Shown here piece after piece: positions 17,214 through 44,694 of a stretch of 64,000 bases of DNA; the first letter of the stretch is position 1, and every line of letters starts with the position of its first letter. The translations under genes were made by a program, and so were the position numbers. This DNA comes from Weissella oryzae SG25 (GTDB lineage Bacteria > Bacillota > Bacilli > Lactobacillales > Lactobacillaceae), in the NCBI RefSeq assembly GCF_000691805.2, contig NZ_DF820488.1:62001-126000 (forward strand). Reading direction: 5' to 3'. The notes below the pieces were generated by a model. That model was not told where the DNA came from and did not search any database. It worked only from the letters and a program-made list of their open reading frames with translations.

Positions 17214-18956
17214 TTAAATTTTCTTATTTAACACAGCCCGAAGTAATACGGGCTTAACAATTAATTGAATTGATTTTTTTGCTCGAGTAATACCACTATA
17301 AATCAGATTACGATTTAAATGCGGATAATTTTTGTCTATATAGAAAAAAACATTATCAATCGACAATCCTTGAACTTTATTTACTGTAGCTGTATAACCC
17401 AGTTCTAAATCCCGATATAATTCGTGAATATCTGGACTATACATACCAGCATTATAACCTGATGATGATTTTTCCATCAGATCAACAATTAGCAATCTAT
17501 TATCTAAGTCAGGCACGCGAATTTGTATCTTATAAGCATAGGTGGTTGGGGAATACTTTCAAAGATAACCCTATTTAAAGGTTCACCATTTTCATCATTA
17601 GGAAACAAGTCAACAATTTCAATTCGAGTTGCACCTCGCAAGTGAAAAGTATCTTTACTTGGGCGACCAGTTGTCCAATCATGGACCAATTGAGGAGATT
17701 CATAACCATTACTATTTCACCAGTATGGAGGGTAATTTTTTTGTCCGCGGATAGTCTAAGTTTCTGAGATGTTGGGAATAATAATTGATATTTTATTTGA
17801 ATTTTTTCTGCAAGGACTCGACGCATCTCATTTGTTGGAACCAAAAGAATACTATCCAATCCGTGATTATTGGATATCTCAACAAATCTTTGTGCTAAAT
17901 ACTCTTCCACCTCATCCTCATTAAGAAAATCATCTTGCGATAAGAGCGCTACCGGCAAAAGCGTTGTCCTAGGTAATGAATAATGTTTTTTATATTCATT
18001 GGGGTCATTATTTAAGATTGCTCGTGAGAAATGAATAATATCATTTGAACCAGTTCTCTGTATAATTTCTAATTGTTTACTATCAAACAATATGTTTGCC
18101 TGTCGTAATAAATTGAAAAGTCGTTGTGGGGGATTTTGAATAGCTGGTAATTGGTTTGGATCACCAATAAGAATAACTGGTGTTAAAGTTTCCAATGCAA
18201 ACAGCGCAACATCCAGAAGCGCAATTGCATTTGCCGCAAAAGACTCATCCACTACAATCAAATCATAGTGAGGAATCGTTTGTTGTTCATTATTAATGAG
18301 TCGTCCAAATTGAGCAATTTCTAAAGAATCTGCTGCCATTCGAAACATCCAACTGGTCAGGGTACTAACAGTAATCATATCGTCTCGATTACTTGATTGC
18401 AGTTTGTTGGCGGTCATGTCTTGATCAAATCGGGTTTCTCGCACTTGGTCAATCAATTGGTTAATATTTGTACTCGCTACATGAGTAGGCGTCAGTACAG
18501 CAGTTTGCAACTGATTATCTACTAGATGTTTAATTAATTCGCTGTTAAATATGATTTCCCGCTACCAGCTTGCCCAGTAATTGTTGCAAATAAGAATTGT
18601 TCTCCTGCTAATTGATTAAATATTAATTGCTGACTCCCGGTTAATGCTGGATCTTTTGATAAGTTTTGATAAACATAATGAATGTTGTTTTTACTTTCAT
18701 TTTTAAAATCTATGTTGGCTAAAAGTAACTCTAATCTTTTCAACCAAGCATCTTTACGAGGAATTGTTAAATCGATTTTTGGACTATTCTTAGTATCTTG
18801 CATGGCAAGTCTATAAAAATCACTTTGCTTGTTCATACTAGATAGAAGTTCTTGATAACTAACAATGTCAAATAGGTCACGTTTCATCTTATGATGAAAG
18901 AATGCTAGATTTTTTTCTGCATCCGTAAATAGCTCTGTATTTAATTTATTTCCCAT
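17214..18956 (-). pseudogene. RecD-like SF1 DNA helicase, broken by frameshifts
   Basis: Successive frames read one superfamily 1 helicase of about 570-580 residues. 18534-18956 gives the N-terminal domain and Walker A (ITGQAGSGKSYLT). 17575-18510 carries on with LTPTHVAST, Walker B (LIVVDES), motif III (ILIGDPNQLPAI) and motif IV. 17504-17689 and 17214-17516 give the 2B/SH3-like part and the C-terminal UvrD-like motifs (LGYTATVNKVQGLSID, YSGITRAKK). Frame changes occur near 18510-18535, 17700 and 17510. The joins are clean, so decay is recent or the sequence has errors. RecD2-like proteins unwind DNA 5' to 3'; this copy is probably inactive. Confidence 0.8.
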
Positions 18957-20307: not shown

Positions 20308-21066
20308 TCATTTTCGACGCTTGATTCCTAATAATACTAACAACAGAAATAATTCACCAAGCATCTGTACTGATTCATTATTCAACATACCAGTATCTGG
20401 TAATGAATCATTATGTGGAAAATTACTCCAATCATTGTTTGAGTCTGAGATTGAATCATTATCTGAGCTTGATTCACTTGCTGAATCAGAATGAAATTCA
20501 CTAGCTAAAATTGAGTTTGAATCAGATTCTGATTCAGACTCAACATCTGGTAAAGTGCCTAATTCAATTCTATATTCGTCCCCTGAAATCCCACTCTTTA
20601 ACCACCCTCCAAGCAATAAGCCAAAACTAGACCCAATTCCAGCGGTAGCCCCATAATAAGCAATTGCCCTGCTACGCATTTCGCCAGTATAGTTATCCAT
20701 TAATAATGCGAGCGAAGTTGGTGCTATTATTGCTGAACCAATTCCTTGAATCGCCCGGGCAACAATTATCATGACAGCTGAATTAGACAGACCAACAAAC
20801 AAACTAGCCATGCCAAAAATTAGTAGTCCTGTAATAAAAATCTTTTTTCTACCAATTAAGTCTCCCAGCCGGCCAGCCAATAGCAAAAAGCCACCAAATG
20901 TAATGGTATAAGCATTTGACACCCAGGCTAATATTGCTTGACTCATATTAAGATCATTGGCAATCTTAACGGTACTTGTGAAAATAATAGAATTATCCAT
21001 TAAAATTAAAAAATATGAAAATAGAATAATGAATAAAGTTACTCCAAACTTTTGTTTGTTAATCAT
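20308..21066 (-). CDS. chimeric protein: MFS exporter N-terminus fused to LPDTG wall-anchor tail
   Basis: 252 residues. Residues 1 to about 157 are the first five membrane spans of a DHA2 exporter, closely matching the protein at 1-1172 (GRLGDLIGRKKIFITG, GATAGIGSSFGLLLGGWL). At about position 20590 the frame passes into an acidic Ser/Asp/Glu-rich stretch (SESESDSNS, SDSASESSSDNDS) and ends in a sorting signal: LPDTG, a hydrophobic span (LGELFLLLVLLG) and KRRK. This is a precise joint between two unrelated genes. The MerR-type promoter and start remain intact, so it may be expressed. As a transporter it must be dead; as an anchored protein it lacks a signal peptide, though the exporter spans could insert. 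Most likely a deletion product. Confidence 0.8.
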   Translation of the reverse strand: MINKQKFGVTLFIILFSYFLILMDNSIIFTSTVKIANDLNMSQAILAWVSNAYTITFGGFLLLAGRLGDLIGRKKIFITGLLIFGMASLFVGLSNSAVMIIVARAIQGIGSAIIAPTSLALLMDNYTGEMRSRAIAYYGATAGIGSSFGLLLGGWLKSGISGDEYRIELGTLPDVESESESDSNSILASEFHSDSASESSSDNDSISDSNNDWSNFPHNDSLPDTGMLNNESVQMLGELFLLLVLLGIKRRK

Positions 21067-24365: not shown

Positions 24366-24403
24366 AAAAGAAGGTTGAAACATAATTATTTCAACCTTCT
24401 TTA
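24366..24403 (-). terminator. terminator of the rgg-like gene
   Basis: AAAGAAGGTTGAAA / TTTCAACCTTCTTT hairpin with a T-run, right after the stop codon at 24404. Confidence 0.8.
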
Positions 24404-25267
24404 TTATTTGCTAAAGGTGCGTTCTGTCAATAAACGTTTTATTGCTGCTATTTCCACAATGTTTCGATTAATTTTTGAAAAGGCATACGCATCCCTAAGT
24501 AATTCATTAATCTCATCAACTGATACATTCCGCTTAATTGCGTTTTGTGCCTGTAAATAAACTGCTCTTGCCAGATAGTAAGTTACATGTTGCTCACTAA
24601 CTAAATCAATTAACGCGTTTAATAGAATGTCACTTGTCTCCAGATCGTGTTCTGAAAAGAATTCGGCTGTATAAAATAAAATTGATAATTTTCGCCAGAT
24701 TGTTCGTGCATGGTCATTTTTTAAACTCATTACATTTTCAAAGCTTTGCTCAAAATATTGCTCGGCTAGTTCCTCATTACCTTGTCGAGCATAAGCCATG
24801 CCAAGACCAGTATAGGCCAGATATAGATAGATTTCAGCATGTTTTGCCGGCTCAAGTACAATTGAATTCAACCGTAATATTGCCTGATTAACATCTTTTT
24901 CACTACAAATATCAACATATGACCGAACAAAGACATACCAATCATGTAAATCAGCTTGTTCTATTTTTGTTACATCAAGTTCATTCAAAATCGTATCGGC
25001 TGCTGCATACTCAGAAACAATTAACTTATATTCAGCGGCCGCTAATTTAGTTCGAATTATCTTTTCAGTTGAGGTCTCTTCGACTACAAATAAATCAGCC
25101 AAACTGATATCTAATCGATTGACCAGTTTGGTCAATATCTTAATGCTCGGAATTTTACCACCTGATTCAAACCGGCTAAGTGTTGCTTGTGTTGCAATCC
25201 CCTGAGCCAATTCATCTTGGGTTAATCCTGCTGCTAACCGAGCATCAATAAAGCTCTGAATATTCAT
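24404..25267 (-). CDS. Rgg/XRE-type regulator with TPR-like domain
   Basis: 287 residues. An N-terminal XRE helix-turn-helix (RLAAGLTQDELAQGIATQATLSRFE, about 9-33) is joined to repeated alpha-helices (LAYTGLGMAYARQGNEELAEQYFEQS) like the peptide-binding TPR domain of Rgg/PlcR/PrgX regulators. These sense small peptides in many Firmicutes; no adjacent peptide gene is convincing here. The ATG at 25267 has GGGAGG nine bases upstream; the in-frame extension to 25324 has no ribosome binding site. It lies 60 bp behind etfA and could be cotranscribed with it and regulate the operon. Confidence 0.82.
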   Translation of the reverse strand: MNIQSFIDARLAAGLTQDELAQGIATQATLSRFESGGKIPSIKILTKLVNRLDISLADLFVVEETSTEKIIRTKLAAAEYKLIVSEYAAADTILNELDVTKIEQADLHDWYVFVRSYVDICSEKDVNQAILRLNSIVLEPAKHAEIYLYLAYTGLGMAYARQGNEELAEQYFEQSFENVMSLKNDHARTIWRKLSILFYTAEFFSEHDLETSDILLNALIDLVSEQHVTYYLARAVYLQAQNAIKRNVSVDEINELLRDAYAFSKINRNIVEIAAIKRLLTERTFSK

Positions 25268-25384
25268 GCGTACAGACCTCCCACCAATTAAAAAGTTGTT
25301 GTTTAAAAACAAACTACTTTTCATTGCTTTATTTAACCTAGTTAATCCTATTTTACCAAATAACCGACCTAAATCTATAAGTAA

Positions 25385-26371
25385 TCATTTATCCAGTAAT
25401 TTAGCATGTAAGTCATCAATAAAGCTCAGTGCATCACCAACTTTAACAAAATCAGATTGTTCAAAAACCGGTGCATTTTCATTGGTATTAATCGAAATAA
25501 CTTGTTTTGCTCCCTTGATTCCGGCAACGTATTGCATGGAGCCGGAGATTCCTAAGTTAATTAATAATTTTGGACTAACCATTGAACCTGATTGACCAAT
25601 CTGATCACTATGATCAAATCCCGGCTTCTCAGCCATTGGTCGGGTAGCACCCACTGCTGCACCTAAATAGTGAGCAATTTCATGCAACTTGGCTATACTT
25701 CGCTCTTTTTTCACGCCGCGACCAACTGCAAAAATCAAGTCGGCGGTGGTAACTGATTGCTTCGTAGCTACGTTTTTAGTCACTATACTCTCAATAAATT
25801 GGCTTTTTGGTTCAATTAAATCTGCTACTTTGATCTTCCGAATATCCTTTGTAGGCTCATCTACTGTTACCGCTTCAAATGTACCCGGACGTGCCGTTGC
25901 CATTTGCGGGCGCGCTGTCGGTGATACAATTTCCGCTAGGATTTTATCCCCATAAGATGGTTTTACCTGTACCAGTAAACTATCTTCATAATAAAAATCT
26001 AAGGCATCCGCAGTCAATGCCGTTTGTAAATTATACTGCAACTTTGGTGCCCATGAACGAGCTAAGGGTGTTGCTGAAAATAAGATTGTATCTGGTTGCT
26101 CGGTTTTCGCTAATGTCGTCAAAGTGTTACTTAAAATATAATCATCGGCATTAATTGCTTCTGGACTAGTTAGATATATCACTTCATCAGCACCAAAGTA
26201 TTGAGCTGATTGATAGTCGTTAATTTTTAAATCATCACCAAGGGGGATAATTGCTACAACTTTGTGGTCAGCGTTCTTTATCTGTCGTGCTTTAGTAATT
26301 AATTGGCCCAACCCATTATCTAATTTACCAACAAGGACTTCCCCGATGACCCATATTTTCTTATCTGCCAT
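25385..26371 (-). CDS. etfA: electron transfer flavoprotein, alpha subunit
   Basis: 328 residues. The C-terminal FAD-binding domain is well preserved: VGATRPMAEKPGFDHSDQIG, then GISGSMQYVAGIKGAKQVI and INTNENAPVFEQSDF, all family signatures. The N-terminal domain pairs with EtfB. The ATG overlaps the etfB stop (TAATG). With EtfB it shuttles electrons between the acyl-CoA dehydrogenase and another redox partner in the cytoplasm. No quinone-linked ETF dehydrogenase gene is nearby, so the partner is unknown; an NADH-dependent, possibly bifurcating role is conceivable. Confidence 0.95.
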   Translation of the reverse strand: MADKKIWVIGEVLVGKLDNGLGQLITKARQIKNADHKVVAIIPLGDDLKINDYQSAQYFGADEVIYLTSPEAINADDYILSNTLTTLAKTEQPDTILFSATPLARSWAPKLQYNLQTALTADALDFYYEDSLLVQVKPSYGDKILAEIVSPTARPQMATARPGTFEAVTVDEPTKDIRKIKVADLIEPKSQFIESIVTKNVATKQSVTTADLIFAVGRGVKKERSIAKLHEIAHYLGAAVGATRPMAEKPGFDHSDQIGQSGSMVSPKLLINLGISGSMQYVAGIKGAKQVISINTNENAPVFEQSDFVKVGDALSFIDDLHAKLLDK

Positions 26372-27153
26372 TATCTGATCATCCCTTCACTCTTTAAAAT
26401 TGCTAACACTTGCTCGACTGCCGAAGCAGCTTCAATCACCTTGCCTTGACGACCGGCTTCTTTTGGCTCGACAATTGCTCGTACCGCTGACGGCGAACCC
26501 GCTAACCCAATGCGTTCATCCTCAGCTGCCAGTTTCTCAGCATTCCAAGTTATTATTGCATCATCAGCCATTGTCATTAAGCGATGAGCTGATAAATAAC
26601 GGGGCTCATTCGCCAAATCAGAAATAGTCAAAACTGCAGGGTAATTGGCTGTAATCGTTTGTGACACGGGGCCTAAGTTACGTTTTGCGGTAATCTCTTC
26701 TGCATCAACTGCCATAATTTCATAAAGATATGTTAATTGTGGCCAGGCTAATTGGGTGGCAACCAATGGACCAACCTGTCCGGTATCGGCATCAATCGCC
26801 TGCTGTCCAAAAATTACTAACCGCACATCTGTCAGCTTAGCGATAGCTTTCGCCAGTACATAGGCAGTCGCTAAAGTATCTGCACCAGCAAATTTTCGGT
26901 CAGATAATAAGATACCCTTACTTGCACCCATTGCAATTGCCTCAGCTAGGACTTCCTTTGCTTGATTTGGCCCCATTGAAATTGCAACCACTTCATCATC
27001 ATTTTTAGCGGCTATTTCAAAGGCGGTTTCCAGGGCGTGTTTATCGTATTTATTCATCTTGTTATCATTTGATCGAACTAAGTTGTGCGTGATTGGATCA
27101 ATTGCTACATTGTCAGTATTTGGGACCTGTTTTACTGCTACTACAATTTTCAT
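26371..27153 (-). CDS. etfB: electron transfer flavoprotein, beta subunit
   Basis: 260 residues. It opens with IVVAVKQVPNTDNVAID, the N-terminal signature of EtfB, and holds the AMP/FAD loop (LVIFGQQAIDADTGQVGPLVA) and RNLGPVSQTITANYPAVLTI. The start overlaps the acyl-CoA dehydrogenase stop codon (TAATG). The order dehydrogenase-EtfB-EtfA is that of anaerobes' bcd-etfBA and carCDE operons. Length and motif fit the group that includes NADH-oxidising, bifurcating ETFs, but a second-flavin signature cannot be judged by eye. Confidence 0.95.
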   Translation of the reverse strand: MKIVVAVKQVPNTDNVAIDPITHNLVRSNDNKMNKYDKHALETAFEIAAKNDDEVVAISMGPNQAKEVLAEAIAMGASKGILLSDRKFAGADTLATAYVLAKAIAKLTDVRLVIFGQQAIDADTGQVGPLVATQLAWPQLTYLYEIMAVDAEEITAKRNLGPVSQTITANYPAVLTISDLANEPRYLSAHRLMTMADDAIITWNAEKLAAEDERIGLAGSPSAVRAIVEPKEAGRQGKVIEAASAVEQVLAILKSEGMIR

Positions 27154-28265
27154 TAACGTTGTGCCTCAAATTTCGTAATCTCTGTACGCATTTTTTCAAC
27201 TGAGCCTTCCGCAAATTCAAGCGCTCGTGCATCACGAATCAAATGAGCAATTGGGAACTCCGCTGAAAATCCATAGGCTCCCATTGCTTGCATTGCATCA
27301 TCACCAACTGTAACTGCTGTTCTTGAACCGTATGCTTTGGCCATCGTTGAAAGGAGGAAATACTCTGGATTGTCCAAATCACGTTTCAAAGCCGCATCCT
27401 GATACAATAGCCGAGTCGTCTGATAACCGATTGAAATATCTGCAATCTTGCGTTGAATCGTTTGTAATTCCCAAAGCTTTTGCGCACCTGCTTTACGTTC
27501 TTTAGCGTAATCAAGTACTTCGTTTAAGGCATGTTGCTGAATGCCGGCCAACACTGCCCCCATCATTACACGAGCATCGGCATGCGCTGAATCACCAATT
27601 GTCAAACTAGGATAATTGATTGGATTTAGCCGATGATAATCTGGCACAAAAATATTTTCCATTGCAATTCCACCAACCGGCGTCCCAGTTAAACCAATAA
27701 ACTCCTCAGCCTCGGTATAACTGAATCCCGCCATTTTCTCATCAACAACGTAAAATGATAAGGTTTCATCCTCATCTTTAGCCATTACTACATATACATC
27801 AGCTAAACCACCATTAGTAATCATAATTTTTGACCCATTAATGATATAACCACCATCAACCTTGCGCGCGGTCGAATTAATATAACTTGGATTCGTTCCA
27901 CCCGTAGATTCAGTCATTGAAAAAGCAAAAATCGACTTAAGTGCCGCTGGAAAGTAGTGTTGCAACAATCGCTCATTACCATAGCGCAATAGTTGGTATA
28001 CCGTCTTCATGTGTCCTTCTAGAATTACTGCCAGTGATGCATTTGCAGTAGCAATGATTTCTAGTGTTTTTGCAATTGTTACAAGTGATAGATTCGCTCC
28101 ACCATATTCAAAGGGTAAATTCATCCCCAAAAACTCAGCTTTTACCATCTTCTCGTATAATGAATCGGGAATTTTACGATTCTTATCGATGTCCATATCC
28201 AATGGAGCAACCTCTTGATCAGCAAAATCTTGTACCATTCTCAAAAATAACGCATCTTTATCCAT
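27153..28265 (-). CDS. acyl-CoA dehydrogenase
   Basis: 370 residues with the three-domain acyl-CoA dehydrogenase fold: N-terminal helices (PFEYGGANLSLV), the beta domain (FAFSMTESTGGTNPSYI, GSKIMITNGGLADVYVV) and the C-terminal four-helix domain (DAMQAMGAYGFSAEFPI). Glu353 in EFAEGSVE aligns with the catalytic base of short-chain and butyryl-CoA dehydrogenases. The start at 28265 has AGGAG seven bases upstream. In complex with EtfBA it would oxidise an acyl-CoA or, in reverse, reduce an enoyl-CoA. No other beta-oxidation gene is nearby, and the chain length and direction are unknown. Confidence 0.93.
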   Translation of the reverse strand: MDKDALFLRMVQDFADQEVAPLDMDIDKNRKIPDSLYEKMVKAEFLGMNLPFEYGGANLSLVTIAKTLEIIATANASLAVILEGHMKTVYQLLRYGNERLLQHYFPAALKSIFAFSMTESTGGTNPSYINSTARKVDGGYIINGSKIMITNGGLADVYVVMAKDEDETLSFYVVDEKMAGFSYTEAEEFIGLTGTPVGGIAMENIFVPDYHRLNPINYPSLTIGDSAHADARVMMGAVLAGIQQHALNEVLDYAKERKAGAQKLWELQTIQRKIADISIGYQTTRLLYQDAALKRDLDNPEYFLLSTMAKAYGSRTAVTVGDDAMQAMGAYGFSAEFPIAHLIRDARALEFAEGSVEKMRTEITKFEAQR

Positions 28266-28293
28266 AGTTTTTCTCCTTGTTAAATTCATCACT

Positions 28294-28322
28294 ATATTAC
28301 TGCCATTTCATCAATTTGTAAA
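28294..28322 (-). promoter_or_regulatory. sigma-70 promoter of acyl-CoA dehydrogenase operon
   Basis: TTTACA (28317-28322), 17-bp spacer, TAATAT (28294-28299) on the minus strand, 29 bp before the start codon at 28265. Confidence 0.7.
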
Positions 28323-28361: not shown

Positions 28362-28403
28362 AAACAAAAAGAAGCTCCTAAATCTTATTTAGGAGCTTTC
28401 CGC
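28362..28403 (-). terminator. terminator of the citrate lyase operon
   Basis: AAAGCTCCTAAAT / ATTTAGGAGCTT with a following T-run on the minus strand, about 115 bp past the alpha/beta hydrolase. Confidence 0.75.
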
Positions 28404-33209: not shown

Positions 33210-33502
33210 TAGAGTACCTCCCAAGTTGGTTGATCTACAATATCCAAGGCTCGTTGTACTGCTGCAATGGTTCGTGCCTTGATTACCATATCAAGAGCCC
33301 CTTTATCAACAACTTGAATATTTGCTTGCTCAATATCATAGCTTTGCAAAACTTCCATAATTGTCGCCTTAATTTGGGCACCAAATTGTTTTTTAACATC
33401 AGACTCTAAGTCAATCTGAATTCCTTTATCGCCTTTTGTTATCATCACTTGTAAATCTGATGATTCCAGGGTACCTGCTAAGGCAGTTTGCTTAATTTCC
33501 AT
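33209..33502 (-). CDS. citD: citrate lyase acyl carrier (gamma) subunit
   Basis: 97 residues, the standard size. Ser14 in AGTLESSD is the attachment point for the phosphoribosyl-dephospho-CoA group, and LESDVKKQFGAQIKATI follows the family pattern. It carries acetyl and citryl groups between CitF and CitE. I place the start at 33502, with GGAAGG upstream; it overlaps citC by 11 bp. The longer frame to 33616 is an antisense-free read-through of citC in another frame and is not supported. Confidence 0.95.
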   Translation of the reverse strand: MEIKQTALAGTLESSDLQVMITKGDKGIQIDLESDVKKQFGAQIKATIMEVLQSYDIEQANIQVVDKGALDMVIKARTIAAVQRALDIVDQPTWEVL

Positions 33503-34544
33503 CAATTTTTTGTCCTTCCTTAATTCGTTCCAATAAAATTGTTTGGTGCTGCTTAATAAATGAATATGTACTCGATGGTACCAAAGCTTGGGTTGCCTCA
33601 ATATCGCCTTGTGCAATCATTTCCCTAACTATTCGAGCCGAATAAACTTCGCCATCTGGCTGACGTTTACGGTCGATAATCTCTACATTGATTTCACTAG
33701 CTAATTCGCGTTGTAAAACCTGATTATAGATATTAGTTGTGTGCGATAATGGCTCACTGCCTAAATAACGTTTATTAATTCTTAAAGCGGGGACAATCCA
33801 ATTACCAAATATTCTTGCATCCAAGGTCGTTTGATAGTCAATTACCTGGTCTTGGCTTTTAATAAAGTAAGCCGGAAACGTTGCATAGCTAACCATATAA
33901 GCACCACCAGATAAAACAACTACATTCTCCAAGTCCTTAGTGCCAGCCTTAACCAAGCCTAATCTTTCTTGGCTAGAAAAAAGGGCCTGATTCTCACTAA
34001 CTACAAAAACATAGACTAAATCATTTTCCTTGGCAGCTTTCTCAACCAAGTACCGATGTCCTAGTGTAAACGGATTAGCATTCATTACAATTGCGGCAAC
34101 TTTTTTGTCTGAAGGTCGCGGCTTTTTTATTTGTGCTAAATAATCTTGGATTGCCGGACTACCAACTTCTAGCAATGCCCCATTTGTTGATTGGGCCAGT
34201 AGCGTAAAGCCTACATGCTCAAAAGATTGAATGTATTGCGGTTTTGTGAAAACAAAGGCATGATAAATTCCCCTTTGCCTTAAACGGTTAATTAACTCAC
34301 TTACAATTTGGTTAAATAAACTAGCACTATTGGCTGATTCACTTGAAGCAGCAATATATTTAAGGACATTGCCAGCCAAAGATCCTGTAGCAACCAAATG
34401 ATTATCAGCAAATATACCGATTACCTCATCAATTGGTAATAATTCACTATCATCAAAACTATCAATACCCATCTTTATAAGAAAACTTTGCCAATCTTTC
34501 CTCACACGGGGTATTCGCAAAAATAAATCTTGTATTTGTTCCAT
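33492..34544 (-). CDS. citC: [citrate (pro-3S)-lyase] ligase
   Basis: 350 residues. An N-terminal GNAT-like domain (DEVIGIFADNHLVATGSLAG) precedes a nucleotidyltransferase domain beginning with Asn157-Pro-Phe-Thr-x-Gly-His (NPFTLGH), the HxGH-type ATP motif. It acetylates the thiol of the citrate lyase prosthetic group using ATP and acetate, switching the enzyme on. First gene of the cit operon, divergent from citR; promoter at 34571-34599. Confidence 0.95.
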   Translation of the reverse strand: MEQIQDLFLRIPRVRKDWQSFLIKMGIDSFDDSELLPIDEVIGIFADNHLVATGSLAGNVLKYIAASSESANSASLFNQIVSELINRLRQRGIYHAFVFTKPQYIQSFEHVGFTLLAQSTNGALLEVGSPAIQDYLAQIKKPRPSDKKVAAIVMNANPFTLGHRYLVEKAAKENDLVYVFVVSENQALFSSQERLGLVKAGTKDLENVVVLSGGAYMVSYATFPAYFIKSQDQVIDYQTTLDARIFGNWIVPALRINKRYLGSEPLSHTTNIYNQVLQRELASEINVEIIDRKRQPDGEVYSARIVREMIAQGDIEATQALVPSSTYSFIKQHQTILLERIKEGQKIDGN

Positions 34545-36762: not shown

Positions 36763-37917
36763 CTATTTCAAAACTTTCTTACTGTAGTTTTCCACAGCTG
36801 TTGCAACAACATCCACCACACCATCATCAAAGACACCGGGAACGATTTTTTCTTGACTTGGTTGCGTAATCATTGCTGCCAAGCCCTGAGCAACCTGAAC
36901 CTGTAGCTGCATATCAACCGACTTCAAACCACTTGCTAATAACCCCTTAAACAATCCTGGGAAGGCCAAGATATTATTGACCTGATTAGCCCATTGTGAT
37001 GAACCAGTTGCTACCACCATGGCACCAGCTGCTTTTGCATCATCTGGGTTAATTTCTGGCACTGGATTGGCTAATGCGAAGATGATTGGCTTAGCTGCCA
37101 TGCGCTTTACTTGCTCAACCGACAAAACATTGGCATCTGAAAGACCAATAAATACATCTTGATTTGCAATCACTTCGTCTAAGTTTTGACCAGCTTGTTG
37201 CGTTACTTGTTCAGCCAAGGCTAATTGATAGCTATTGTAATTAGTCATTCCAGCCTGTACCTTACCATTAATATCAATCAAAGTAATATGCTTGATACCG
37301 ACGGCGAGTAATAACTTTGCAGTTGCAACTCCAGATGCCCCAACGCCATTCAAAACAATTTTCAAATCCTGCAAAGGCTTGTCAACAACCTTGGCGGCGT
37401 TAATTAAACCAGCTAGGACAACAATCGCTGTCCCGGTTTGGTCATCATGATATACCGGAATTGATAACTCTTTTGCTAGGCGCTCCTCAATTTCAAAAAC
37501 TTTCGGCGCTGCAATATCTTCTAAATGAATACCAGCAAAAGACGTTGCCATATTTTTGACCGTTGTAACAAATTCATCGACGCTGACCTGATTCAAAGCC
37601 AAAGGAATTGCATCAACTCCAGCAAATGTCTTATACAAAAGTGCCTTTCCTTCGATAATTGGCAGACTAGCCGCTGGCCCAACATTTCCCAAACCAAGCA
37701 CTGCTGATCCGTCAGAAATAATTGCAACTAATTTACCACTAACTGTGTACTTATCTTTGTCACTAGGGTTAGCTTCAATCATTTTAGAAAGCTTAGCAAC
37801 TCCTGGCGTATATGCTTCCCCAAGCTCATCAGGGTTAGTTACATCAAAACTACCCTTGATTTCTAACACACCCTTTTTTGCTGCATGTAATGCTAAAACC
37901 TTATCCATATCAACCAT
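36763..37917 (-). CDS. mae: malic enzyme family oxaloacetate decarboxylase / malic enzyme
   Basis: 384 residues, the short bacterial form. Visible are the catalytic region YTPGVAKLSKMIEANP with its Tyr, the Lys block (SDGSAVLGLGNVG), the metal-binding EDIAAPKVFEIE and YHDDQTGTAIVV, and a Rossmann loop (NGVGASGVATAKLLL). In citrate clusters this protein (also called CitM) decarboxylates oxaloacetate to pyruvate; NAD-linked malate decarboxylation is the alternative. AAAGGAA precedes the ATG. It forms an operon with the AEC permease. Confidence 0.93.
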   Translation of the reverse strand: MVDMDKVLALHAAKKGVLEIKGSFDVTNPDELGEAYTPGVAKLSKMIEANPSDKDKYTVSGKLVAIISDGSAVLGLGNVGPAASLPIIEGKALLYKTFAGVDAIPLALNQVSVDEFVTTVKNMATSFAGIHLEDIAAPKVFEIEERLAKELSIPVYHDDQTGTAIVVLAGLINAAKVVDKPLQDLKIVLNGVGASGVATAKLLLAVGIKHITLIDINGKVQAGMTNYNSYQLALAEQVTQQAGQNLDEVIANQDVFIGLSDANVLSVEQVKRMAAKPIIFALANPVPEINPDDAKAAGAMVVATGSSQWANQVNNILAFPGLFKGLLASGLKSVDMQLQVQVAQGLAAMITQPSQEKIVPGVFDDGVVDVVATAVENYSKKVLK

Positions 37918-43055: not shown

Positions 43056-44495
43056 TTAATTTGTTAAATGTATCTTCTTAGCAACTCGTTGTCCATAATC
43101 CGCATCTGCCGCTGTAAATTGCGCTACTGCCAATTTCTTGTTTTCCTCTGAGTCAATAGTACCTAATGATTCGGCAATTGCATCGGTCAACAATTCTTTT
43201 TGGTGCTCATCCATTAACCGATATAAGGCGCCAGGCTGACTAGTATAGTCAGGATCATACGCTGGATAATTTCCAGTTTCACCAGTTAATTTCACATTCG
43301 CAACTTTAGCCTCTGGATCAGCCATTGGTCCGCCCTTACTGTTAGGCTCATAATTAACCTCATCAGCTCCGTTTGCCCCGCTAGCCATAAAGCCATCACG
43401 TTCATAAGTATGAACTGGTACTCCTGGGCGGTTGACTTCAATATCTTGATAATTTGCACCTAAACGATAGCGTTGTGCATCATTATATGCAAATAGTCGT
43501 CCTTGCAAAACTTTATCCTCTGATGGCTCAATTCCTGGCACCATATTAGCTGGTGAGAAGGCCGCCTCTTCAACATCTGCAAAGAAATTATCTGGATTCC
43601 GATTAAGTACGAACTGACCCACTTCAATTAATGGATAATCTTTTTGTGAAATTACCTTAGTAACATCGAAGATATCATATTTATACCTTAGCCCCTCTTC
43701 ATATGGAATGATTTGAACTTCTAGGGTCCAGGCAGGGAAATCACCCTTTTCGATATCATCAAACATGGTTTCACGATACCAGTTTGTATTTGAACCTGCT
43801 AGCGCCTGCGCATCATGTGGTGTAAGATTTTTTATACCATGATTTGTCCTGAAGTGATACTTAACCCAGAATTGCTCATTATCAGCATTAACCCATTTAA
43901 AGGTATGCGAACCATATCCGTGCATATGGCTAAAGCTATATGGCAATCCACGATCAGAGAACAGGATTGTTACTTGATGCAGACTTTCTGGTGAATGTGA
44001 AAAGTAGTCCCATTGCATATTAGCATCTCGCAAACCAGTTTGTGGGTCGCGCTTTTGTGAGTGGATAAAGTCTGGGAACTTTAATGGATCATTAAGGAAA
44101 AATACCGGCGTATTATTACCCACGATATCATATAAACCGTCCTCAGTATAAAAACGGGTTGCAAAGCCATGAACATCCCGTAATGTATCAGGATAGCCCT
44201 TTTCTCCCGCTACACTAGAAAATCTGGCCATAACCCTTGTTGTCTTTCCTACACCATTAAACACTTTGGCTTTGGTGTAAGCGGACATATCATTAGTTAA
44301 TTTGAAATACCCCATCGCACCTGATCCGTTTGCATGAACCACACGCTCAGGAATTCTTTCACGATTAAAATGTGCCAACTTCTCAATCAATTGATAATCT
44401 TGCAGCAATAAAGGACCACGCTCACCAGCTGATAATGAGTGTTCATTATCGGCAAAAGGCTGTCCACTCTTAGTTGTTAGTTTTTCATTTACCAT
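43056..44495 (-). CDS. katA: haem catalase
   Basis: 479 residues, a small-subunit (clade 3) catalase. His54 in RVVHANGSGAMG and Asn127 in IVGNNTP are the distal catalytic pair; Arg333 and Tyr337 in GRLFAYNDAQR form the proximal haem ligand. NADPH-binding residues of clade 3 are likely in the middle (HGYGSHTFKW). The ATG at 44495 has AGGGGG upstream. It splits hydrogen peroxide in the cytoplasm. Lactic acid bacteria do not make haem, so the enzyme would depend on haem from outside. Confidence 0.96.
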   Translation of the reverse strand: MVNEKLTTKSGQPFADNEHSLSAGERGPLLLQDYQLIEKLAHFNRERIPERVVHANGSGAMGYFKLTNDMSAYTKAKVFNGVGKTTRVMARFSSVAGEKGYPDTLRDVHGFATRFYTEDGLYDIVGNNTPVFFLNDPLKFPDFIHSQKRDPQTGLRDANMQWDYFSHSPESLHQVTILFSDRGLPYSFSHMHGYGSHTFKWVNADNEQFWVKYHFRTNHGIKNLTPHDAQALAGSNTNWYRETMFDDIEKGDFPAWTLEVQIIPYEEGLRYKYDIFDVTKVISQKDYPLIEVGQFVLNRNPDNFFADVEEAAFSPANMVPGIEPSEDKVLQGRLFAYNDAQRYRLGANYQDIEVNRPGVPVHTYERDGFMASGANGADEVNYEPNSKGGPMADPEAKVANVKLTGETGNYPAYDPDYTSQPGALYRLMDEHQKELLTDAIAESLGTIDSEENKKLAVAQFTAADADYGQRVAKKIHLTN

Positions 44496-44694
44496 ATTTT
44501 TCCCCCTCTTCGAAAATAGCATGGCATAACATAGATAACAAATATTTATCCTTACAATCTAATTGTATCACTATATAAAATATTCAAAATGACTTTTATC
44601 AAGAGATTTTATATTCTAAAACTTGAATCAATCAAAAGCAGCAATATATGCCCAATCAAAGCTTTTTATTCGGTATTTTTAAGGCCTTAATCAA

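Follow-up and report, generated by a model that had tools for sequence, protein, structure and literature searches.

We analysed a 64,000-nucleotide stretch of the Weissella oryzae SG25 genome (contig NZ_DF820488.1, positions 62,001 to 126,000; hereafter the window, which is also the basis of all unlabelled coordinates). The window contains an operon of three genes, acd, etfB and etfA, that encode an acyl-CoA dehydrogenase (ACAD) family protein and the two subunits of an electron transfer flavoprotein (ETF). Both ETF subunits carry a replacement at the beta-flavin, and the same two replacements recur in lactic acid bacteria (LAB). The genes and residues concerned are listed here, with genes called from open reading frames (ORFs) and Pfam.

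27153-28265, minus strand: acd, ACAD-family protein of 370 aa, ATG start behind AAGGAG
26371-27153, minus strand: etfB, ETF beta subunit of 260 aa
25385-26371, minus strand: etfA, ETF alpha subunit of 328 aa, ETF domains only
27207-27209, minus strand: codon of the catalytic Glu353 of the acd product, from alignment to C. difficile Bcd
EtfB residues 86-90: RxFxG NADH motif, here RKFAG, from alignment
26788-26790, minus strand: codon of EtfB Ala122, in place of Gly in 'DGDTAQVGP'
25961-25963, minus strand: codon of EtfA Lys137, in place of the arginine at N5 of the beta-FAD; the alpha-FAD motif is retained

The Pfam scores of all three products far exceed the cut-offs, and at 27153 (acd/etfB) and 26371 (etfB/etfA) the stop codon shares one base with the next start codon (TAATG). 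In the ORF list, the acd frame extends upstream to a GTG at 28292. In their order, acd-etfB-etfA, the genes match bcd-etfBA, as an earlier reading of the DNA made from its letters alone (the sequence-only reading) had noted; that reading placed the operon at 26371-28265, a span that leaves out etfA. Because the same genes recur across Lactobacillaceae, the operon is not a chance arrangement, and we regard it as confirmed. Glu353, also pointed out earlier as the catalytic residue, falls opposite the glutamate of the 'YEGT' stretch in C. difficile Bcd, and all 15 LAB proteins aligned have it. Compared with the Bcd/Car type of bifurcating EtfAB-ACAD complexes, the operon, the ACAD fold, the catalytic Glu and the RxFxG motif of EtfB are all present, while the N5 Arg of EtfA and the Gly of EtfB (position 123 in A. 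fermentans) are both replaced.

The two replacements are a property of the whole LAB group. Among the matches listed in our searches of the genus and of Lactobacillaceae, together with the genomic stretches and plasmids described below and with duplicates removed, 38 distinct LAB loci have an ETF linked to a full ACAD; EtfB has Ala in 38/38 and EtfA has Lys in 38/38. The motifs read 'DADTGQ' in EtfB and 'KP[ST]YGD' in EtfA, versus 'DGDT[AG]Q' and 'RP[AT]FGG' in the solved chains aligned (five EtfB and three EtfA), all of which have Gly or Arg. The RxFxG motif is kept in 36 of the 38 loci (L051 and L072 deviate; L-numbers are labels of compared loci); the SPT/SPS and alpha-FAD segments are kept too. 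A check of the second-FAD residues, proposed in the sequence-only reading, thus gave a divided answer, with the NADH motif intact and both beta-flavin residues exchanged; since the latter holds for all 38 loci, a plain bcd-etfBA label, which that reading had drawn from strict anaerobes, is too strong, even though gene order and NADH motif agree. Arg and Gly were found in nine non-LAB loci (Gly in 9/9, Arg in all six that could be read), in the lactate-type LAB loci L057 and L058, and in the best 30 loci retrieved with the AcrB family model, which matched 95 of 249 Bacillota genomes (Gly 30/30; Arg 29/30, one unreadable). The Lys/Ala replacement at the beta-flavin across LAB acd-linked ETFs is new here. 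We found nothing on this operon in LAB in the titles and abstract openings listed, a coverage that leaves out most subscription journals, and prior notice of the Lys/Ala group is possible.

Relatives outside LAB share the signature. A profile search with the LAB ACADs against 398 Bacillota genomes returned 11 genomes at E <= 1e-90, the window's own included. The 13 non-LAB loci from this search include 11 with an EtfB, all with Ala, and 10 with a readable piece of EtfA, all with Lys; therefore, Lys/Ala goes with this ACAD lineage. Their EtfA motif changes in steps, from KPSFGG (L077) to KPSYGG (L087, L088) and KPSYGD (the remaining seven). In a tree of 95 EtfB rows, with the signature columns kept in, the Lys/Ala group lies on one side of a branch with a support of 85, and a tree of 84 ACAD rows shows the same split with a support of 100. 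In the ACAD tree, a branch with a support of 100 separates LAB, which sit on a long stem, from the other rows, and the non-Bacilli rows do not form one clade. Both are quick trees in which the window's row is long.

Bioenergetics has yet to explain why only some EtfAB complexes bifurcate electrons, and both residues have been implicated in the literature, the one as touching the bifurcating beta-flavin and the other as leaving room for it. The Gly is described as invariant in bifurcating ETFs, with bulkier residues at this position in canonical ETFs (PMC12630350). Arg136 of C. difficile EtfA contacts N5 of the beta-FAD, and its Q, K and M variants overproduced little or not at all (PMC5691135); in A. 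woodii, R205A abolishes both bifurcation and confurcation (PMC9232219).

We searched for partners of the complex in 24 genomes, 16 that bear the operon and eight without an EtfB match. ETF-quinone oxidoreductase (PF05187, Fer4_ETF_QO), the partner by which a canonical ETF would be recognized, was found in none of the 16 operon-bearing genomes, which leaves NADH as the only evident partner. Fer4_13, the one ferredoxin family searched, is present in three of the 16 and not in the window's genome. An ECH_1 crotonase occurs in three of the 16; none was found in the window's genome, and full beta-oxidation was rejected on this ground. The sequence-only reading had named a full beta-oxidation set or an ETF-quinone oxidoreductase as pointers to ordinary oxidation, and had seen no thiolase, crotonase or hydroxyacyl-CoA dehydrogenase nearby; by eye we likewise recognized none among the ORFs, not all of which went through a family library, thiolase not having been searched genome-wide. 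CoA_transf_3 occurs in one of the 24 genomes, an operon-less one, CoA_trans in four (three operon-bearing, W. muntiaci included, and one operon-less), and the AMP-binding family in 23. Neither CoA_transf_3 nor CoA_trans was found in the window's genome by family searches, and its sole AMP-binding gene scores 629.9 bits as DltA (cut-off 559.9); after it come ORFs resembling DltB and DltC as well as DltD. The search for acyl-CoA ligases or transferases suggested earlier was therefore negative for the three families apart from DltA, hence crotonate and cinnamates, the acids proposed as substrates, have no visible activation route in the window's genome.

An AlphaFold model of the acd product (13-row alignment, mean predicted local distance difference test score 85.1, loop 119-125 under 50) has the fold of short-chain ACADs, with Z scores of 43.2 to 2vig, 43.0 to 5ol2_C (C. 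difficile Bcd) and 39.8 to TcsD, an enzyme of acyl-ACP/acyl-CoA (ACP, acyl carrier protein). No ACP-type structure outranked the CoA-type ones in the fold lists, and a shared fold does not show the substrate. Upon inspection of the alignment, we noted 28 positions that are fixed or nearly fixed in LAB and rare (<=10%) in 42 other ACADs; 24 of these are identical in 40/40 LAB rows and four in 39. They include Glu83, Lys87 (for Leu), Met148 (for Phe/Trp), His228 (for Leu), Asp230 and Ala352 (for Tyr/Gly), the last directly before Glu353. Several of them, by analogy with medium-chain acyl-CoA dehydrogenase, presumably line the acyl pocket, and hence the substrate of the LAB enzymes is likely polar or unusual.

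The surroundings of the operon contain the following features.

28277-28294, minus strand: putative Rex-like operator TAGTGATGAATTTAACAA, 14.2 bits, between the -10 element and the acd ribosome-binding site
28294-28322, minus strand: promoter-like -35 TTTACA, 17 nt spacer, -10 TAATAT, 9/12 matches; shuffled sequences have more promoter-like hits than the region does
28372-28398, minus strand: terminator-like hairpin separating acd from the hydrolase gene on the citrate side
24404-25324, minus strand: regulator gene, helix-turn-helix (HTH) and tetratricopeptide repeat (TPR)-like; probable start ATG 25267 with GGGAGG upstream, consistent with W. muntiaci
24367-24402, minus strand: terminator-like hairpin 3' of the regulator gene (the number of hairpins in the region is not significantly above that in shuffles)

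The operator score comes from a matrix of 16 Rex-like sites reported in Lactobacillus oligofermentans (PMC4972977); these sites themselves score 11.3-18.8 bits. The site of W. muntiaci differs from the window's by one base. Rex-like sites of at least 12 bits precede 8/18 acd-family starts versus 8/221 other ORFs of the same loci (Fisher p = 1.7e-6); the 18 starts include two unrelated ACADs of L060 and omit L056, which lacks upstream sequence, and the loci are not independent, three being of one genus and the window and W. muntiaci being close. TTGTGAA-like dyads lie close to the acd start in many LAB loci. With a consensus relaxed after viewing, 13/27 non-redundant starts score at least 15 of 18 (shuffle p <= 0.05 in 13), and in a second set the relaxed consensus is found at 11/18 acd-family starts versus 10/221 other ORFs. 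Collectively, the window's acd start carries a putative Rex-type operator, and such sites at acd starts fit redox control. Among the control ORFs, Rex-like sites of 13.9 and 12.0 bits precede the window's citrate lyase ligase (33492-34544) and malic-enzyme-like (36763-37917) genes, which suggests that the citrate cluster may share this control; the best control site (20.2 bits) belongs to a MarR-type regulator gene near etfBA in L061 (1333-1836).

The protein that follows the operon had been called a peptide-sensing Rgg regulator. An HTH protein is indeed encoded there (HTH_3 above the Pfam cut-off, TPR matches weak); 'Rgg' and 'peptide-sensing' are unproven, no Rgg-specific family having matched in Pfam or NCBIfam scans. 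Its relatives, 38-80% identical to the window's protein, occur in 8/22 neighbourhoods (21 loci and the window) and are the sole recurrent companion of the operon. In L042, L044 and L048, ABC-transporter genes stand between etfA and the regulator relative; a link to crotonobetaine or glycine betaine was rejected, the OpuA-like transporter (by eye) being found, among the loci examined, only beside these three of one genus.

EtfB was found in only two of 28 genomes of the genus searched, the window's and that of W. muntiaci. The latter has the same block (identity: ACAD 90%, EtfB 87%, EtfA 79%, regulator 80%), located after truB and away from citrate genes. Neither W. muntiaci nor the other LAB loci examined, whose neighbours vary, have this neighbourhood, and a terminator-like hairpin (28372-28398) stands between the two gene groups in the window; we therefore dropped the link to citrate that the sequence-only reading had drawn. 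At E <= 0.001, EtfB relatives occur in 72 and ACAD relatives in 94 of 397 Lactobacillaceae genomes (other ETF and ACAD types included). We examined 20 stretches from 19 of these genomes, plus W. muntiaci, and found acd-etfBA of the window's type in 15/20 stretches. In L057 and L058, etfBA adjoins a lactate-dehydrogenase-like gene, L060 is a larger acyl-CoA cluster, and in L055 (6346-8870) and L061 (2549-4993) a Lys/Ala etfBA accompanies a protein of 233-254 aa that replaces the full dehydrogenase and weakly matches the ACAD C-terminal domain. Pfam scans of 17 proteins from the flanks or the vicinity matched no acyl-CoA family, and three of these proteins matched nothing. In one Lactobacillaceae genome (L056, 8-4990), acd-etfBA is followed directly by dihydroxyacetone kinase genes (Dak1 confirmed).

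The operon is also plasmid-borne. The best-ranked 17 of 1688 ACAD-matching plasmid records show 51.5-52.4% identity, while the 18th drops to 33%; the 17 are from Latilactobacillus, Leuconostoc and Weissella cibaria, with sources that include meat, kimchi and starter cultures. The 11 of these 17 neighbourhoods that we examined hold mixed cargo, with Dps genes in five, multicopper oxidases in three and nitric oxide (NO)-reductase-like genes in two. We noted that etfA appears split in pL1595-1 and that the gene table of pL1624-2, which is incomplete, lists none. One operon-bearing plasmid is only 15 kb long and has few other genes. The acd-etfBA operon is a mobile, stand-alone unit of Lactobacillaceae. 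In two small food-LAB plasmids, L071 (W. cibaria pNH9449-3) and L133 (Leuconostoc carnosum pLC4010-2), the operon adjoins a 785 aa NO-reductase-like (NorB/COX1) protein, and pNH9449-3 also encodes a CueO-like multicopper oxidase; a link to denitrification was rejected, such a gene being near the operon in just 2/11 plasmid neighbourhoods.

We postulate, with middling confidence, that the operon encodes a redox-controlled, NADH-dependent enoyl-thioester reductase of the Bcd-EtfBA kind that serves as an electron sink and is probably non-bifurcating. A Bcd-EtfAB-like complex would accept electrons from NADH on EtfB and relay them by way of the EtfA alpha-FAD to the dehydrogenase. There, the double bond of an alpha,beta-unsaturated acyl thioester would be saturated, with NAD+ regenerated as a result. 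Transcription would probably be relieved at high NADH via the Rex-type operator that overlaps the start region. The beta-flavin site would have been retuned by Arg to Lys in EtfA and Gly to Ala in EtfB, leaving the complex mostly non-bifurcating; we base this on the two family-wide changes there and on the rarity of Fer4_13. Flavin content, reaction direction, loss of bifurcation and Rex binding are all four what we infer from the sequences. A reductive NADH sink had also been suggested as a possible role in the sequence-only reading and is still the best reading, with which the Rex-like sites agree.

A number of observations count against this proposal. Several LAB acd starts lack a good operator (14/27 score below 15 of 18, and 10/18 below 12 bits), Crp/Fnr-type sites look like Rex sites, and on some plasmids Crp/Fnr genes stand near the operon, so that the window's site may alternatively be read as of the Crp/Fnr type. 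The three families searched offer no free-acid activation route in the window's genome (W. muntiaci has the CoA_trans match). Lys preserves the positive charge of Arg, Ala is small, and either Arg or Lys contacts N5 in the enzymes of flavin-based electron bifurcation analysed in PMC9232219. Moreover, the acryloyl-CoA reductase complex AcrCBA is reported to be non-bifurcating (PMC5861303), although L089, the nearest AcrB-like locus (just under the family cut-off), retains Arg/Gly; Arg/Gly alone is therefore not decisive for bifurcation, and the sequence by itself is unable to settle it. Lastly, Flavodoxin_1 is present in 16/16 operon-bearing genomes tested, hence a candidate low-potential acceptor exists; the flavodoxin of the window's genome reaches 134.0 bits with the best NCBIfam flavodoxin model (cut-off 138), and the window encodes a Flavodoxin_4 protein at 1222-1674.

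An ordinary bifurcating enoyl-CoA reductase, delivering low-potential electrons to flavodoxin, with Lys/Ala neutral or merely tuning the potential, would account for the flavodoxin matches, the charge-conserving Lys and the retained NADH motif, and flavodoxin can substitute for ferredoxin in the C. difficile complex (PMC5691135). We nevertheless consider it unlikely, given that a Gly called invariant is lost in every LAB locus, that Fer4_13 is so rare, and that the engineered Arg136Lys protein of C. difficile could hardly be obtained (PMC5691135). Quite unlikely, in our estimate, is a dehydrogenase whose substrate is an acyl group bound to a carrier protein, or polar in some other way, instead of a CoA ester, with the ETF supplying electrons from NADH. 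The lack of both CoA-transferase families in the window's genome, the DltA beside DltD as its only AMP-binding protein and the 24 ACAD positions identical in 40 LAB rows (Lys87, His228, Ala352 and Met148 among them) speak for it; the fold, closer to 2vig and 5ol2_C than to TcsD, the CoA_trans matches in W. muntiaci and two other operon-bearing genomes, and five non-Bacilli relatives linked to CoA-transferases speak against it.

There is little probability that the protein is an AMP-binding canonical ETF that connects the dehydrogenase with a further, unlinked flavoprotein. Canonical ETFs are marked by lacking the small Gly, and F. nucleatum places one of them between its lactate dehydrogenase and Bcd (PMC12630350); however, Ala is not bulky, 36/38 loci keep the NADH motif, the 15-kb plasmid offers few other genes and no ETF-quinone oxidoreductase was found in the operon-bearing genomes. 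Oxidation of an acyl-CoA with transfer of electrons to NAD+ is the least probable, as it would suit the fold and the catalytic base of acyl-CoA dehydrogenases and the crotonase of three operon-bearing genomes, but would be strongly uphill with NAD+ alone (crotonyl/butyryl-CoA -10 mV, NADH -320 mV; PMC5691135) in genomes that have no ETF-quinone oxidoreductase (0/16) and mostly no crotonase (13/16).

Returning to the NADH-dependent reductase, we tentatively put forward a bolder form of it, which we hold as a possibility and not as an expectation. A whole lineage of NADH-dependent ETFs may have lost bifurcation through exchange of the N5 Arg and the invariant Gly. In LAB, it might power a rebuilt dehydrogenase (Lys87, His228, Ala352 and others) whose unsaturated acyl substrate is polar or carrier-bound. 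The pair would serve as an NADH sink under redox control, at times carried on plasmids, for cells that lack ordinary acyl-CoA activation.

When the N5 arginine was changed by engineering, either little protein was made or coupling was lost (PMC5691135, PMC9232219). With a Lys/Ala family that occurs naturally, in food bacteria and also on small plasmids, the question of bifurcation can be put to a direct test. If our proposal is true, an unrecognised NADH-consuming reductase operates in lactic fermentations, where redox balance sets the products.

Three other features of the window stand apart from the operon. A single ORF at 20308-21066 joins the N-terminal part of a major facilitator superfamily transporter (Pfam) to an acidic serine-rich tail with LPDTG and a membrane anchor, and is either a gene fusion or an assembly join. 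Two adjacent ORFs at 17575-18956 look, by eye, like pieces of one RecD-like helicase; the larger matches AAA_30 and the smaller nothing. A heme catalase gene (Pfam Catalase) lies at 43056-44522, in a lactic acid bacterium.

Among known systems, LctBCD (lactate dehydrogenase-EtfAB) shares the ETF architecture and occurs in some Lactobacillaceae too (L057, L058), where a GlcD-like protein of 466-467 aa (by eye) takes the place of the ACAD and Arg/Gly are retained. CarCDE, the caffeyl-CoA reductase of Acetobacterium, has the same ACAD, EtfB and EtfA subunits, of which EtfB and EtfA are among the best PDB matches; by contrast, CarE is longer (396 aa chain) and has Arg, while LAB EtfA has ETF domains only and Lys, and the Car complex has iron-sulfur motifs (PMC6085437). 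Bcd-EtfBA of Clostridia resembles the LAB system in gene order, fold, catalytic Glu, RxFxG and alpha-FAD motif; it differs in that LAB have Lys for Arg in EtfA, Ala for Gly in EtfB and Ala for Tyr before the Glu, in an ACAD identity of 31%, and in that no crotonase or thiolase was seen beside the window's operon.

The clusters of non-Bacilli Bacillota (L119-L127 and L129) have Lys/Ala and lie on the same side of the ACAD-tree branch as LAB. Unlike those of LAB, they have CoA-transferase genes after the operon in 5/10 cases (none in L121 and L129, none called in L119; L122 and L124 are short contigs), a sigma-54 regulator before it in three, and ordinary acyl-pocket residues (Leu, Leu, and Gly before the Glu). 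The five with CoA-transferase genes fit reduction of an activated acid, and we read these clusters as acid activation followed by NADH-driven reduction. Finally, the Acr models (AcrCBA of Clostridium/Anaerotignum propionicum) are the best NCBIfam match for the ACAD and for EtfA and the second for EtfB. Orthology was rejected, the scores being far under the cut-offs (191 of 640, 153 of 475 and 157 of 600 bits); AcrCBA nevertheless provides a precedent for NADH-driven, non-bifurcating reduction of an enoyl-CoA.

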